Shown here piece after piece: positions 5,160 to 11,630 of a stretch of 64,000 nucleotides of DNA. The position numbers and the translations under genes were made by a program. Below the pieces are notes generated by a model. That model saw nothing but the letters and a program-made list of their open reading frames with translations, did not search any database and had not been told where the DNA came from. Each line of letters begins with the position of its first letter. Position 1 is the stretch's first letter. The stretch is from Microcoleus sp. AS-A8 (GTDB taxonomy: Bacteria; Cyanobacteriota; Cyanobacteriia; Cyanobacteriales; Coleofasciculaceae), in the NCBI GenBank assembly GCA_039962225.1, contig JAMPKV010000012.1, positions 124,001 through 188,000 on the forward strand. Reading direction: 5' to 3'.

Positions 5160-5771
5160 ATGAGGGACATTACTCAAGAAGAAATGCGAGATCGAATGGG
5201 GAATATAGACCTCATTCGTGATATAATATTCGGTCCAAAGCTTCAAGAATATGACAGTCGCATTGATAAATTAGAATCTAACTTATCTTTGCTAGAGAAG
5301 GAAACGCACGATCGCATTGAGCAAGTCAAAACGGACTGTTTGACAGAACTGCGGTCATCCGTTGATGCTCTAGAGCAAAAAATCAAGTCTCTTAGCCTCA
5401 CCTTTCAGAAAGATCATGCAGATATTCGACAACTCATCGATCGCACCTACCAAAATTTTTCCGGAAGTCTGGAATCGATTGATAAAACGCTAGTCAGCCA
5501 GACAACATCGATTCGCAAAGAACTCTCAGAAACCAGAGAAAAGCTGCAAGACGATACCCGAAATCTCAAGTCTCAAATTTTTGATGAGCTGGAAAAGCGC
5601 TTCTCGTTGCTTACCAACGCTAAGGTTTCCAGAAATGATATGGCAGACATTCTATTTGAGTTGGGCTTAAGGCTAAAAGGCACTGACTTGGCTAAAGAGC
5701 TTAAAGAAGCGAATAACAACAATGAGTCGAATGATGTTCTCTTCATAGAAGCCAGCAAAGTTTCAGAGTGA
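5160..5771 (+). CDS. Coiled-coil protein, first gene of the GTPase/OmpA cluster
   Basis: 203 residues with no family I recognise. Residues about 20-150 have long heptad-like runs rich in Leu, Ile, Lys and Glu (for example LQEYDSRIDKLESNLSLLEK), so a coiled coil is expected. The C-terminal 50 residues look like a small helical domain (MADILFELGLRLKG) with an acidic end. There is no signal peptide or membrane segment, so it should be cytosolic. It is 139 bp before the OmpA-like gene on the same strand. A scaffold or adaptor for the following membrane and GTPase proteins is plausible but inferred only from position. Confidence 0.75.
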   Translation: MRDITQEEMRDRMGNIDLIRDIIFGPKLQEYDSRIDKLESNLSLLEKETHDRIEQVKTDCLTELRSSVDALEQKIKSLSLTFQKDHADIRQLIDRTYQNFSGSLESIDKTLVSQTTSIRKELSETREKLQDDTRNLKSQIFDELEKRFSLLTNAKVSRNDMADILFELGLRLKGTDLAKELKEANNNNESNDVLFIEASKVSE

Positions 5772-5910
5772 ACTCAACTACCAAGTAGCCCTAAGGGGTA
5801 GAGTTGCTTGAGCGAATTTCTGGAGTTTAGAAAATTTTAGGCTCCAGGAGGATTTTCATCGGGTGACATCTACCCGCCTAAGTGAAGATTTAGGGGAAGT
5901 AGATTAGACT

Positions 5911-8544
5911 ATGGCTTCATCAAAAGAAAATCCCTCAGCTAAATCCCAGCTAAAAGGCTTAGTGGATTTATTGGCTGATTTACAAATTCTGAACACACCG
6001 CAAAAACCTCCCGATGAATCTACCCCGTCTCAGAAAGATGCACCCAGTCCGGGTGAAGCTCTGGGTTTGGCGTCGGTGGAGGAATACCAAGATGCACCGC
6101 CAAAGGCTGACGCTGCTCATGGGGCTAACACGGCGCGATCGCAAGATATACTTGAGCCTGAGACAAACACTCTCATTGAGTCTCAGTTCAATGAAAAAAA
6201 TTCTCCAGAAACGTCTCATTTCGTCGCTCACCCTTCAGCGATAGAAGGCTCCCTCAATGGGGTTGAAGGTGAACCCAAAGAACTATCTCAGCCTCATCCA
6301 CCAGAACAGCAAGAACAAGAGCCTAACAAACCATCTCTTCTCTCTCAAGCGGTTGAATTTTTGCAAAGTCGGCGAGAGCAATCTTATACGTCACAACAGC
6401 AAGAAGCAGAGCCTAAAAAGCCATCCCTTCTTTCTCAAGCCGGGGAATCTTTGCCAAAGGGACTATCTCAGCCTCATCCGCCAGAACAGGAAGAAACAGC
6501 AGTTACCAACCAATCCCTTGCCTCTCAAGTAGATTCAAGCCAGTCCAAAAACTTAGAGGCACCGCCCGAAAAAGGCTTTAATCAGCTCATTGAATCTCAC
6601 TGGCAAAAAGTGCAGCGAAACCAATATACCCATCAATCCATGGGTTCGATGCCTGATCAAGATGTAGACAATTCAATTACCCTATTTGAGCGTTGGCAAC
6701 GTCTGCTCCTGACTCAGGAAGTCATGGATTCTCGAACGGCGTTCGCAGAGTTTAAACAAAAATTAGAGAGTCTGGAGCATCAAATTTATGAACCTACACA
6801 ATTAAGTAGTTTACTTCTACCTTTAATCGCTGATCTTTTGGCTCAAAAGGTAGCTGATGCCAGGGAAGATGTGGCTCAAGCCATTGCTCCAGTTATTGAT
6901 GAAATGATTCAGCGTCGGGCTAAACAAGATATCGTGGCGATTAGTACGGCTTTAGCCCCTGTGATACCTGAAGCTGTTGCCAAACAAGTGATCAACTCGC
7001 CTGGGGCTTTTGCTAAAGCACTAGGGCCAGAAATGGGGAAGGCTATCCAAGAACAGATTATCTTAGAGCGGGATTCCATGGTAGATGCTCTCTATCCCGT
7101 CATTGGTAGCACCATTTCTAAATACATGGCGGAAGCCATTAAAGCGATTAATGAAAAAGTCGAAAATGCTTTCAGTGTAGAGGGACTTTCTCGCAAAGCT
7201 CGTGCCAAGGTGCAGGGAATTTCTGAGGCAGAACTCATCTTCAAAGAGTCAATGCCGTTTACCATCCAGGCGATGTTTTTAATTCATAAAAGCTCTGGAT
7301 TGGTAATTGCGGAAGTGCAACCCTCAGATAGCCAGCGCCTAGAGTCGGAGATGGTGGCAGGTATGCTTACGGCGATCCGCAGTTTTGTCAATGATGTAAT
7401 CGCCCAGACTGGAAGTGTTTCGGAGATCGATCAAATTGACTATGGCGATTCAAGAATTATCCTGGAAGTGGCGGGATACTGTTACCTAGCGGCAGTAACC
7501 AAAGGAGAACCTCCTCGCTCATTTATGCAAAAGATGCGTAGTACGCTGAGTACTATCATTCAAAAACAAGGTAAACCCATCGAATTATTTGATGGCGACC
7601 CGGATAATGTTCCTGAAGAGGTACACCAGCTCCTCAAAGACTTAACAAAACTTCCCGATACAACTTCAGCCACTGAAAAATCTCAAGCTCCTGTTGGCCT
7701 GTTACTCATCGGTTTAACAGCATTAATCGCGATTTCTTTACCGATAGGAATCTATCAACATTTGAGTTCAACAGACCGTCGTCGTGAAAAAGAAATCAAC
7801 CTAGCTTTAGCATCTGATCCAGAGTTAGCGGTTTATCGGGTTGGGGTAGACGCCAATCTGGGAACAATCAAGCTGAGTGGAAAGTTACCCAATCAATATC
7901 TTCGTTCTAGAGCCGAAAAAATTGCCAAGGAAGTCGAACCCAAAGTCAGCATACACAATACGATTATCCCTGTGGAAGTGCCCCCCGATCCGGTGTTGGC
8001 AGCAGCGGAAGTGAAGCGAGTGGCTAATATTCTAAATCAGATTCAGGGGGCGGTGATTGCAGCCGATTATAGTGAGGGAGCCGTCACCGTCAAGGGAGCG
8101 GTACTTGAGCAAGACGATGCCAAGCAAATCACACAAGCCTTTTTGCAAATTCCCGGAGTGAAGTCCGTCAGCAATACCGTACAACTGCAATCTCAGGCGA
8201 TCGCCTCCCGAATTTACTTTGACCAGGGTTCTTCCGAGATAAAATCAGAGGAACGCTCAAAAATTGCTCAGATCAGGGCATTTCTTGATCAGCACCCAAA
8301 CAAACACCTCAAACTCTTGGGTCATACTGACCCTAAGGGTTCGGCTACTGAAAATCAGCCATTGGCACTGGAACGGGCAACCAAGGTCAAAAATGTCCTT
8401 GTTGCTCAAGGTATCAATGCCAAGCGACTGCAAGCTGAAGGGACAATAGACCCTCCTATGGGTGTAAGTGCCGAGCAACTACCCTTATTAAGTCGATGTG
8501 TAGAATTTGAGATCATTTCACCTAAAGGGTTAATGCGTTCTTGA
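5911..8544 (+). CDS. Membrane protein: helical region, longin/roadblock-like domain, TM, two BON domains, OmpA domain
   Basis: 877 residues. The N-terminal 230 are disordered with repeated SLLSQA/EPKKPS words. Residues about 275-430 form helical units (ALYPVIGSTISKYMAEAI). Residues about 440-556 (MFLIHKSSGLVIAEV, MVAGMLTAIRSFVNDVI, CYLAAVTKGEP) resemble a longin/roadblock-type alpha-beta domain, a fold that often contacts small GTPases. One membrane segment (about 593-612) leads to two BON domains (about 625-690, 700-760) and an OmpA peptidoglycan-binding domain (about 765-865, GHTDPKGS with downstream LALERA). The N-terminus is therefore predicted in the cytosol and the C-terminus at the wall. 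Two GTPase genes follow directly. The BON/OmpA call is firm; the GTPase-contact role is inference. Confidence 0.85.
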   Translation: MASSKENPSAKSQLKGLVDLLADLQILNTPQKPPDESTPSQKDAPSPGEALGLASVEEYQDAPPKADAAHGANTARSQDILEPETNTLIESQFNEKNSPETSHFVAHPSAIEGSLNGVEGEPKELSQPHPPEQQEQEPNKPSLLSQAVEFLQSRREQSYTSQQQEAEPKKPSLLSQAGESLPKGLSQPHPPEQEETAVTNQSLASQVDSSQSKNLEAPPEKGFNQLIESHWQKVQRNQYTHQSMGSMPDQDVDNSITLFERWQRLLLTQEVMDSRTAFAEFKQKLESLEHQIYEPTQLSSLLLPLIADLLAQKVADAREDVAQAIAPVIDEMIQRRAKQDIVAISTALAPVIPEAVAKQVINSPGAFAKALGPEMGKAIQEQIILERDSMVDALYPVIGSTISKYMAEAIKAINEKVENAFSVEGLSRKARAKVQGISEAELIFKESMPFTIQAMFLIHKSSGLVIAEVQPSDSQRLESEMVAGMLTAIRSFVNDVIAQTGSVSEIDQIDYGDSRIILEVAGYCYLAAVTKGEPPRSFMQKMRSTLSTIIQKQGKPIELFDGDPDNVPEEVHQLLKDLTKLPDTTSATEKSQAPVGLLLIGLTALIAISLPIGIYQHLSSTDRRREKEINLALASDPELAVYRVGVDANLGTIKLSGKLPNQYLRSRAEKIAKEVEPKVSIHNTIIPVEVPPDPVLAAAEVKRVANILNQIQGAVIAADYSEGAVTVKGAVLEQDDAKQITQAFLQIPGVKSVSNTVQLQSQAIASRIYFDQGSSEIKSEERSKIAQIRAFLDQHPNKHLKLLGHTDPKGSATENQPLALERATKVKNVLVAQGINAKRLQAEGTIDPPMGVSAEQLPLLSRCVEFEIISPKGLMRS

Positions 8545-8584
8545 TAAGTGAGGAATCAGTACTGAGCAACGACGATCGATTATC

Positions 8585-9346
8585 ATGTCACTGATCTCTA
8601 AGAAAATCTGCATCATTGGTGAGTCGGAAGTCGGCAAAAATAGTCTAATTTGTCGCTTTGTCGAACGCCAGTTCAGTGAAGAATATCTTTCCACGGTGGG
8701 AGTACAAATTTCCCGGAAAACGCTTCAATTGCAAGGAGTCAATTCTTCGCACCAACTGAATATACAGTTGCTGATCTGGAGCATCACAGGGCATCCTAAT
8801 TTTAAGGCGATCGCTCCCACTTACTTAAGAGGAAGTAGCGGTGCTGTTGTCGTTGCCGACCTCACCCGTCCAGAAACGATTGAGCGGCTAGCAGAACATA
8901 TTCAGCTTTTTTTAGCCATCAATCCCAAAGGTTTTATTATAGTCGCCTTAAATAAATGCGATTTAATTGAACAGGAACAACTGGCAGAACTCATTCAGCT
9001 TCAAAATCTGGAGCAAGTCGTATCAGGAATCTATCCAACTTCAGCCAAGACGGGCTTATACGTTGACGACATTTTTCTCCAAATTGCTTACAAAATTTTA
9101 GAATCCTGCGACAATGGCTTTTCCTCCTTTCAAACTTCCCTTGGCCTAGAAGACTTCTCTAACGGCAGAAAAGGGGGGGAGGGAAACCAGAGTCTTCATG
9201 ATAGCGATGCGGAGCATACTCCCAAGAAGAACCCGCAGTGTCGTTCACACAGGACAGGGAAACAGAATGATGATGGTCTATTCCTGCTGGGATGTTGTCT
9301 CACTACTCCTGGGACATTGCTGCGCCACGCTTGGACGTTAGCGTAG
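8585..9346 (+). CDS. Ras-superfamily GTPase-like protein with degraded G1 and G3 motifs (candidate pseudo-GTPase)
   Basis: 253 residues. Residues 1-175 align with the next gene's product over the whole G domain. The P-loop reads GESEVGKNS: N19 replaces the Ser/Thr that binds Mg2+. The G3 motif reads WSITGH: S66 replaces the Asp. The base-recognition motifs NKCD (123-126) and SAK are intact, so guanine-nucleotide binding without normal hydrolysis is possible. Residues about 176-253 are an extension absent from the paralogue, and its stop codon lies within a palindromic repeat. The gene lies 40 bp after the OmpA-like gene. A regulatory partner of the active paralogue is inferred. Confidence 0.85.
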   Translation: MSLISKKICIIGESEVGKNSLICRFVERQFSEEYLSTVGVQISRKTLQLQGVNSSHQLNIQLLIWSITGHPNFKAIAPTYLRGSSGAVVVADLTRPETIERLAEHIQLFLAINPKGFIIVALNKCDLIEQEQLAELIQLQNLEQVVSGIYPTSAKTGLYVDDIFLQIAYKILESCDNGFSSFQTSLGLEDFSNGRKGGEGNQSLHDSDAEHTPKKNPQCRSHRTGKQNDDGLFLLGCCLTTPGTLLRHAWTLA

Positions 9347-9355
9347 CCAGCGTGG
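9325..9355. repeat. Palindromic repeat containing the stop codon of the first GTPase
   Basis: CCACGCT (9325-9331) and AGCGTGG (9349-9355) are perfect inverted arms around GGACGTTAGCGTAGCC-type sequence, a common cyanobacterial dispersed repeat. The TAG stop (9344-9346) is inside it. The rest of the gap to 9588 is repeat-like, pyrimidine-rich sequence, including an AGCTTTAGTGAGGA copy at 9477-9490. Confidence 0.65.
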
Positions 9356-9588
9356 GCACTCTAAGACCATATTGGGTGAACGCCATCAGACCACATCCGA
9401 CTTGTAAACCCCTTTTTTAATCGTCTAAACAATCCTTTCCCTTTCCCATCCTCCCACTCTCCGGGTGGGCACCCGCAGCTTTAGTGAGGAGGCAGCGCCC
9501 CTATGCCCCACTCCCCCCTTGCATAAGCGTTATCGGGAGGTTAAAAGAGAGCTGTAGACTGAAAAATTAACAATTAGTAACTATTTAC

Positions 9589-10098
9589 ATGGCAACTATC
9601 TCCAAGAAAATTTGCATGGTGGGTGACTTCGGAGTCGGCAAGACGAGCTTGATTCGTCGATTTGTCGATCGCCAGTTCAGCGATCAGTATCTTTCCACGG
9701 TGGGAGTCAAGATCTCTCGGAAACTTGTGGAATCCGTGAATTTACAGTTGTTAATCTGGGACTTAGAAGGTCACACTAAGTTCAAGGGTATTACCCCCAG
9801 TTACCTACAGGGAGCCAGTGGAGCTGTTGTTGTTGCCGATGTCAGCCGCATTGAAACCGTAGAACGGCTTTTAGAGCATGTTCAACTCTTTTCATCCATT
9901 AATCCCAAAGGAACAATTGTAGTTGCTTTAAATAAATCAGATTTAATTGATGAAGAAAAACTAGCCAAACTCACTCAATTAGTTCCCGTGCATGATTGCG
10001 AACAAGTGGTAGCAATCTACCAAACTTCAGCAAAGACAGGCATATCCGTAGACGAAATATTCCAAAAATTAGCTGAAAAAAGTCTAGAATCCGTATGA
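9589..10098 (+). CDS. Ras-superfamily small GTPase (Rab/Rup-like)
   Basis: 169 residues, a single G domain. G1 is GDFGVGKTS (K18, T19), switch I keeps T37 in YLSTVGV, G3 is WDLEGH (D58, G61, with His where Ras has catalytic Gln), G4 is NKSD (115-118) and G5 is TSAK (146-149). All nucleotide and Mg2+ residues are present, so it should cycle between GTP and GDP. No lipid-anchor Cys is visible. Its stop overlaps the histidine kinase start as ATGA, indicating translational coupling. Prokaryotic Ras-like GTPases such as MglA set cell polarity; a similar role here is inference. Confidence 0.92.
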   Translation: MATISKKICMVGDFGVGKTSLIRRFVDRQFSDQYLSTVGVKISRKLVESVNLQLLIWDLEGHTKFKGITPSYLQGASGAVVVADVSRIETVERLLEHVQLFSSINPKGTIVVALNKSDLIDEEKLAKLTQLVPVHDCEQVVAIYQTSAKTGISVDEIFQKLAEKSLESV

Positions 10099-11630
10099 AC
10101 CTTCTTTTAACTAAAATTTTAGCGCCCCGTTATGAGTACCTGATACTGACACGAAAGTTGGTGATTTTAGAGGCATCCTATGGCGCGCAATGTTTTGCCG
10201 ATTGTGCAGAAACGTTGAAATTGGGAAAAGATGCCCGCGTGTCTTTCCCGGAACTACTAGGAACTGAAGAAATTCTCAGTGATATCCTAGAAGGACGACA
10301 GAGCAATTTTGAATTGAAAGGAATTGCTCGAAAAAATGACCAAAAATTTCCTTTTTACTTAGATTTATATATCAGTGAGTACTCTAATCAAGAGACATTG
10401 GAAAATCATCTCATTGTCTTACTTGAAGATGCTACAGAAAGGATGATTTTACAGCAGACTTTGGCGCAAAGAACCAACGAAGCCAATCTCTTAGTCAGTT
10501 CTTTGACCGCTTCAAAAAATTATATTGATAAAATTATTAACTCCATGGCTGATGCTTTATTAGTAACAACAGCATCAGGAATTATTAAAACTGTCAATCC
10601 ATTTGCTCAAGATTTATTTGGCTACAGCCAGGACGAGTTAATTGACCAGCCAATCTCAAAGTTAATTTCCCATGAAAAATTCTTAGAGTATACAAAAAAG
10701 TTTTCCTCTTCAAATCAAGGTGAATTTATCAAAGATGTGGAAGTAGTTTGTCAAACTAAAACGGGCGAACAAATTTGGATATCTTTTTCCTGCTCAGCGA
10801 TTCAGACAGAAGTTGAAGGATTACAAAACTTCGTTTATATCGGTCGAGATATTAGTGATCGCAAACGTGTAGAAGCTCAGATGATGAAAGCCCTCGAACG
10901 GGAAAGAGAACTCCGAGAACTCAAATCCGACTTTGTTTCGATGGCAAGCCATGAGTTCCGGACGCCCCTAACGGCAATCTTTTCTTCGGCTGAATTACTG
11001 CAACATTACGGTAATATCTGGGCTGAAGAGAAAAAGCTCAAACATTATCATCGGATTGAATCTGCCGTCAGACGGATGACAGGACTCTTAGATGATGTTT
11101 TGCTTTACAGTAAAGCCGAAGCAGGAAAACTACAGTTTAATCCTACCTCCCTAGTTTTGAACAATCTGTGTAGCGATCTAGTGGAAGAATTGCAACTCGG
11201 CATTGGAGAAAAGCATAAGATTTCCTGGGTCTACTCAGGGCCATGCAAGAATGCTTACATGGATGAAAAGCTCCTGTTGCACATTTTGACTAATTTACTG
11301 TCAAATGCAATTAAATATTCACCCTCAGGTAGTACCATCTTTTTTAGCGGCTCCTGTGATCAGGAAAATGAAGAGATCACCTTTGAAATTAAAGACCAAG
11401 GAATTGGTATTCCTCCAGAAGACCAAGCACAACTGTTTGAGTCGTTCCATCGAGCCAAAAATGTGGGGGATATTCCTGGGACAGGACTTGGTTTAGCCAT
11501 TGTGCAAAAATCAGTAGAATTACACGCGGGTAAGATTACAGTCAATAGTGAAGTAGGGGTTGGCACTACCTTTCGTGTGACTCTACCGTTGAATAGCAAA
11601 ATTAAACATGTTCCCGTGGAATGTCTCTAG
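10095..11630 (+). CDS. Cytosolic PAS-domain sensor histidine kinase coupled to the small GTPase
   Basis: 511 residues with no membrane segment. The N-terminal 150 residues are PAS-like and end in a coil. A PAS/PAC domain (about 150-260; SMADALLVTTASGIIKTVNP) is followed by HisKA with the phospho-acceptor H286 in SHEFRTP and an HATPase_c domain with NLLSNAIKYSP (N-box), DQGIGIP and GTGLGLAIV. It phosphorylates a response regulator not encoded beside it. The ATGA overlap with the upstream GTPase gene indicates coupled translation, so the kinase probably signals with or is regulated by that GTPase. Confidence 0.92.
   Translation: MNLLLTKILAPRYEYLILTRKLVILEASYGAQCFADCAETLKLGKDARVSFPELLGTEEILSDILEGRQSNFELKGIARKNDQKFPFYLDLYISEYSNQETLENHLIVLLEDATERMILQQTLAQRTNEANLLVSSLTASKNYIDKIINSMADALLVTTASGIIKTVNPFAQDLFGYSQDELIDQPISKLISHEKFLEYTKKFSSSNQGEFIKDVEVVCQTKTGEQIWISFSCSAIQTEVEGLQNFVYIGRDISDRKRVEAQMMKALERERELRELKSDFVSMASHEFRTPLTAIFSSAELLQHYGNIWAEEKKLKHYHRIESAVRRMTGLLDDVLLYSKAEAGKLQFNPTSLVLNNLCSDLVEELQLGIGEKHKISWVYSGPCKNAYMDEKLLLHILTNLLSNAIKYSPSGSTIFFSGSCDQENEEITFEIKDQGIGIPPEDQAQLFESFHRAKNVGDIPGTGLGLAIVQKSVELHAGKITVNSEVGVGTTFRVTLPLNSKIKHVPVECL

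Follow-up and report, generated by a model that had tools for sequence, protein, structure and literature searches.

A Group 1 Rup locus of Microcoleus sp. AS-A8 with a predicted longin-like domain on a wall-binding membrane protein

Genes and domains of the locus

Five plus-strand genes of Microcoleus sp. AS-A8 stand in series within the window, the whole stretch of 64,000 nucleotides that was analysed. They encode a coiled-coil protein, a membrane protein, two GTPases (referred to here as GT1 and GT2) and a sensor histidine kinase (Table 1). The open reading frames agree with the layout drawn in the initial annotation: coordinates, gaps of 139, 40 and 242 bp, and then an ATGA that forms the overlap between the GT2 and kinase genes. 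Pfam recognises BON (E 1.3e-11, two stretches) and OmpA (E 1.5e-14) domains in the 877-aa protein, Ras in GT1 (E 6.6e-25) and GT2 (E 5.4e-26), and PAS, HisKA and HATPase_c in the 511-aa kinase; the 203-aa protein returns generic coiled-coil families only. By hydropathy there is one membrane segment in the 877-aa protein (residues 596-614) and none in the other four proteins, the kinase included. The operon contains no response regulator, no RNA element was found in the region, and the promoter and terminator counts there are close to the shuffled expectation and hence uninformative.

Table 1. Genes and domains of the locus, in window coordinates
Feature	Coordinates	Strand	Remarks
Coiled-coil protein, 203 aa	5160..5771	+	N-terminal motif IRDxxFGxxxxxYDxRxxKLE conserved; no TM
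Membrane protein, 877 aa	5911..8544	+	Low-complexity N-terminus, helical stalk, predicted longin, TM helix, two BON, OmpA
Tandem 23-residue helical repeats x4 (A-[IL]-x-P...)	6880..7155	+	Residues 324-415 of the 877-aa protein
Predicted longin-like domain	7225..7584	+	Residues 439-558; AlphaFold and Foldseek
Transmembrane helix, one	7696..7752	+	Residues 596-614; hydropathy 2.35
First BON domain	7774..7965	+	Residues 622-685; Pfam PF04972
Second BON domain	~8002-8202 (approximate span)	+	Pfam PF04972
OmpA peptidoglycan-binding domain	8215..8442	+	Residues 769-844; Pfam PF00691; D807, R822
GT1, degenerate duplicate Rup GTPase, 253 aa	8585..9346	+	T19N in P-loop, D58S in G3
GT2, Rup GTPase, 169 aa	9589..10098	+	G1-G5 intact; His replaces the catalytic Gln of G3
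Sensor histidine kinase, 511 aa	10095..11630	+	PAS + helix (1-150), PAS (153-255), HisKA, HATPase_c
EFFN module (PAS fold + signalling helix) of the kinase	10095..10544	+	Near-invariant Q121, Q125

Assignment to Group 1 Rup

A gene set of this kind already has a name. Wuichet & Sogaard-Andersen (2014; PMC4316618) described Rup, one branch of the small GTPases of prokaryotes, as grouping with the eukaryotic Ras superfamily, and their 'Group 1 Rup' lists genes for a coiled coil, a DUF-TM-OmpA protein, a GTPase and an output module. The typical outputs are kinases and GGDEF/EAL proteins, and the N-terminal region of the output holds an invariant Gln. In that paper the conserved domain of the membrane protein is called unknown, Group 1 Rup has no assigned function and no Rup protein is characterised, and a signalling system analogous to conservons was proposed. 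The Microcoleus locus contains a small Ras-superfamily GTPase in which the G3 Gln is not conserved, an adjoining coiled coil, a protein with a conserved domain, a TM segment and a C-terminal OmpA domain, and an output module with a Gln of the invariant type (Q121, Q125). The genome has six roadblock genes, none of them on the contig of the window (C12), and the GTPase is thus uncoupled from MglB, as in Group 1 Rup. Judged by the published gene set and features, the locus is a member of Group 1 Rup. The initial annotation had presented it as undescribed and without a named system, a novelty that was overstated, since four of the genes are listed in PMC4316618. A literature search of limited coverage found no later work that takes up Rup or describes a longin-OmpA protein in bacteria, though others could exist.

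Phylogenetic distribution

Is this arrangement of genes accidental? A relative of the 877-aa protein is present in 44 of 59 related genomes, and a comparison of 40 loci and their neighbouring genes showed the coiled coil, membrane protein, GTPase and enzyme recurring in this order, whereas the flanking genes in the window (a bifunctional nuclease, an aldo-keto reductase and MutL) were shared with close relatives only. A scan of one genome per species over 84,980 species confirmed 259 relatives, of which the best 80, those retained, are all cyanobacterial. Partners were counted with profiles built in this analysis, the denominators being the loci with room for the gene. The coiled coil lies upstream of the membrane protein in 65/70 loci, the GTPase downstream in 70/75, and an enzyme with an N-terminal module of the EFFN type is present in 61/68, against flanking genes kept in 1, 1, 0 and 3 of 80 loci. 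Such a difference places the gene set far from chance. The neighbourhood that the initial annotation had expected to be conserved is kept, and so is the coupling of GTPase and kinase genes that it had proposed. The core domain, taken over the full family, occurs in 51 of 291 genomes of the class, and 50 of these 51 also have EFFN, which is found in 5 of 231 genomes without the core. Gene content and conservation are in this way established here.

The family has its variants. Other cyanobacteria carry a second, divergent operon subfamily (L154-L157), with a longin-OmpA protein of about 600 aa between the coiled coil and Rup. The operon of Arthrospira sp. PCC 9108 (L112) looks disrupted, the core lying within a 446-aa ORF and a shortened coiled-coil ORF about 7 kb upstream. 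In two further loci (L060, L061) the core proteins are larger (about 1200 aa), and neither a GTPase nor a coiled-coil gene was found adjoining them.

A counterpart lies on the Mesorhizobium plasmid pWSM1497, where the gene order matches the cyanobacterial set. The coiled-coil profile picks up a hypothetical protein in a position equal to the cyanobacterial one (68.6 bits), and the core profile an OmpA-family protein (118 bits); next come a gene annotated as 'Rab family GTPase', which matches Rup (128 bits), and as output an adenylate/guanylate cyclase whose N-terminal helix matches the EFFN module weakly (15 bits). On these matches, the Mesorhizobium locus with a cyclase output is new here. 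Three adenylate/guanylate cyclase genes adjoin the Rup operon on this plasmid (L166, 11372-17713).

The membrane protein

Residues 255-592 of the 877-aa protein were modelled with AlphaFold from 54 aligned relatives. The model as a whole is of moderate confidence (mean pLDDT 69.7, pTM 0.45), and from residue 439 it runs helix-beta-beta-helix-beta-beta-beta-helix, with a pLDDT mostly of 75-92. Foldseek against the PDB gave 12 matches at E <= 0.001, and the top 50 are all longin/roadblock-fold proteins or complexes containing such, among them adaptin subunits, Ykt6, Sec22b, TRAPP, Ragulator, Mon1-Ccz1 and MglB (3t12). Identity to the eukaryotic longin platform proteins is about 10-16%, a likeness by fold. 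Residues 439-558 have no Pfam match and a PDB profile search with the core returned nothing significant. A profile link of the longin-like domain to the roadblock proteins that this genome encodes was rejected, as hhalign gave a probability of 0.3%; with no detectable profile similarity, the claim is one of fold and not of family. The model thus supports residues 439-558 as a predicted longin/roadblock domain, an assignment that is new here and that agrees with the fold suggested for residues 440-556 in the initial annotation. Not every protein with a longin domain regulates a GTPase; SNAREs and adaptins are examples of those that do not.

Conservation is uneven along the protein. Mean column identity is highest in the helices preceding the longin (0.74), followed by the longin itself (0.70), which contains the most conserved helix, GMLTAIRSF; it is 0.68 in the 23-residue repeats and 0.54-0.57 in BON/OmpA. 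Relatives of the membrane protein gain or lose whole 23-residue repeats, and their cytosolic stalks would differ in length accordingly. In the OmpA domain, D807 and R822 are 15 residues apart and invariant in 28 homologues, and they match the diaminopimelate-binding pair of A. baumannii OmpA. The invariant pair, together with the modelled longin fold, is consistent with the proposed topology, a wall-binding part outside and a fold of GTPase platforms inside.

One conserved GTPase and a decayed duplicate

The nearest PDB sequences to GT2 are Rab/Ras (E 6.7e-23). At 169 aa it falls within the 150-240 aa range of single-domain small GTPases, and its eukaryote-like G1-G5 motifs are all intact. The position of the G3 Gln (62) holds no conserved Gln in 113 relatives (H in 72, S in 23, Q in 11, N in 6 and R in 1). 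GT1 has N19 and S58 where 113/113 relatives have T and D, so it lacks the P-loop Thr/Ser and the G3 Asp that mark Mg-nucleotide binding, and probably, to go by these residues, it does not cycle nucleotide; its T19N change resembles the dominant-negative S17N form of Ras. In the sister species the N-terminal half of GT1 is gone and a C-terminal fragment remains. A system of two GTPases, as first annotated, is rejected on these two grounds, the missing invariant residues and the deleted half. GT1 is best read as a decayed, lineage-specific duplicate outside the conserved set, which leaves GT2 as the one conserved GTPase. The C-terminal half of GT1 compared with the sister species has a dN/dS of about 0.18-0.19 (from few sites), a sign of selection on the protein that argues against random drift and makes an earlier or residual function possible.

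GT1 also carries a C-terminal extension unrelated to Rup, present as a single copy in the genome, which rejects the idea that it is a repeat; it matches no Rfam family and no plasmid match was found for it. Within the extension (window 9128-9346), about 90 consecutive bases match those of the sister species without a difference, despite the half-deleted GT1 there.

The EFFN module

What would receive the signal of the GTPase? For residues 1-150 of the kinase, EFFN, the model (pLDDT 88.5) shows a PAS domain with a long helix behind it. Foldseek matches EFFN to LOV and other PAS domains, and a PDB profile search with EFFN gave nothing significant. Two glutamines on the helix, Q121 and Q125, are each kept in 141/143 sequences. 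Among the 115 proteins at these loci that start with EFFN, phmmer finds a kinase in 58 and a class III cyclase in 37, and GGDEF is present in 3 of 7 scanned among those with neither; winged-helix domains are attached to EFFN as well, and many effectors continue beyond it with PAS and GAF sensor domains. The genome of Microcoleus sp. AS-A8 itself holds three further EFFN copies besides that of the kinase, one of them on a PAS-GAF-cyclase protein. EFFN is a portable PAS-plus-helix module, shared by kinases, class III cyclases, GGDEF enzymes and one DNA-binding protein; this description of it is new here. The predicted folds, the active-site residues and the effector repertoire are likewise established here. 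Gene fusions, looked for as evidence of interaction, were not found.

Rup and EFFN pairs also occur apart from the remaining genes of the operon. On contig C9 of the same genome (L152, 5295-6601) a second Rup gene stands immediately before that of a 257-aa EFFN-PAS protein, which lacks an enzyme domain, and no coiled-coil or longin gene lies nearby. On contig C2 (L153, 6089-6853) EFFN forms the C-terminus of an OmpR-type DNA-binding protein, which by its domains is a possible GTPase-controlled transcription factor.

A proposed mechanism and its alternatives

How would these parts work together? We consider it probable that, in this member of Group 1 Rup, a wall-anchored longin docks Rup and that Rup switches EFFN enzymes; what binds what, which way the signal runs and how the longin acts (as GEF, GAP or scaffold) are what we infer. 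The OmpA and BON domains would hold the membrane protein on peptidoglycan. On the cytosolic side the longin, carried by the helical-repeat stalk, would dock the Rab-like Rup (GT2) at the inner membrane, and the coiled-coil protein probably organises the longin/stalk assembly. By analogy with Ragulator, TRAPP, Mon1-Ccz1 or MglB and their own GTPases, the longin may set the nucleotide state of GT2. Rup-GTP would then engage the EFFN of the histidine kinase, and of enzymes encoded elsewhere in the genome, switching their catalytic domains via the signalling helix. The glutamines of the EFFN helix may complete GTP hydrolysis and in this way help to end the signal. Beside Rup variants that carry their own Gln, at least one neighbouring effector still keeps Q125, which weakens this trans-glutamine idea without excluding it.

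Could the locus serve polarity or positioning instead? The wall-bound protein would mark the septum or pole, the longin would concentrate Rup in the manner of MglA for the motility or division machinery, and the enzymes would be just one among its various clients. Wall anchoring, a GTPase and a coiled coil do resemble polarity modules, and most of the organisms named for the best 80 loci belong to genera of filamentous cyanobacteria. Nevertheless, this reading seems unlikely. After the GTPase, the most constant partner is an enzyme module and not a motility gene, the Mesorhizobium set comes with a cyclase, and the GTPase is Rup and not MglA. Occurrence of the system does not follow that of HetR, taken as a marker of filamentous growth; an association with such growth through HetR was not clean, as the system is present in family f54 without a HetR match. 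Signalling might also run in the opposite direction, the kinase or cyclase sensing a ligand by its PAS domain and driving the GTPase, which would act on the envelope via the OmpA protein. The sensor domains downstream of EFFN would suit this, and conservons, where the GTPase was proposed as the output (PMC4316618), set a precedent. Yet it is the catalytic domains that vary widely, from kinase to class III cyclase, GGDEF and winged helix, while the N-terminal module stays constant, which better fits EFFN as an input than as an output and makes the reversed flow distinctly unlikely.

Finally, the longin might be an element of dimerisation or a scaffold with no role on the GTPase, the genes being linked by co-expression only. 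It has no sequence-level link to GTPase regulators, and many longin-fold proteins are neither GEFs nor GAPs. On the other hand, the longin and its preceding helices are the best conserved part of the protein (above the wall-binding domains), and both are kept beside a GTPase in Alphaproteobacteria; we regard a purely structural role as very unlikely.

The predicted longin on a wall-bound partner of Rup provides the missing candidate regulator, and the concrete binding pair makes the system testable. It also suggests that the pairing of longin and Rab-like GTPase is not confined to eukaryotes and archaea, and EFFN lets the clients of the GTPase switch be predicted genome-wide, including ones far from the operon. 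A more general picture is tentative: the longin platform might report the state of the wall to a Rab-like GTPase, and the GTPase might broadcast it via one portable receiver to several outputs in each genome (kinases, enzymes of cAMP/cGMP and c-di-GMP, transcription factors), a bacterial parallel of eukaryotic Rab/Rag platforms.

Comparison with known systems

A defence system of the Zorya type was considered and rejected, as ZorA/ZorB gave weak coiled-coil/OmpA matches only (E ~1e-5 or worse). MglA/MglB of Myxococcus xanthus resembles the locus in combining a Ras-like GTPase with a partner of roadblock fold. However, MglB is soluble and detectable by profile, unlike the longin-like domain here; the operon has no RomR or Frz-like partner, and an MglA-type GTPase with an adjacent MglB is absent from the locus. 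Kinship with MglA systems, to which the initial annotation compared the locus, is not supported, the GTPase being Rab/Ras-like (Rup) and the longin-like domain showing no detectable likeness by profile to roadblock proteins. Actinobacterial conservons (Cvn: kinase, roadblock, CvnC, MglA-type GTPase) likewise group a histidine kinase with a small GTPase and a protein of longin/roadblock fold, but their GTPase is of the MglA family and not Rup, CvnB is a free-standing roadblock protein whereas the predicted longin here is fused to a wall-binding protein, and their kinase is membrane-bound whereas the one here is soluble and has the EFFN module. Ragulator, TRAPP and Mon1-Ccz1, which are among the top fold matches, are membrane longin/roadblock-fold domains that bind Rab/Rag GTPases; they are multi-subunit and sit on organelles, in contrast to a domain on a single-pass, wall-bound bacterial protein. 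Group 1 Rup remains the system to which the locus belongs, sharing four genes with it: the Rup GTPase, the coiled coil, the domain-TM-OmpA protein and the output module. Compared with its published form, the unknown domain is longin-like in our model, the outputs gain class III cyclases, a winged-helix protein and GGDEF proteins that lack EAL, and the Microcoleus locus has a decayed second GTPase.
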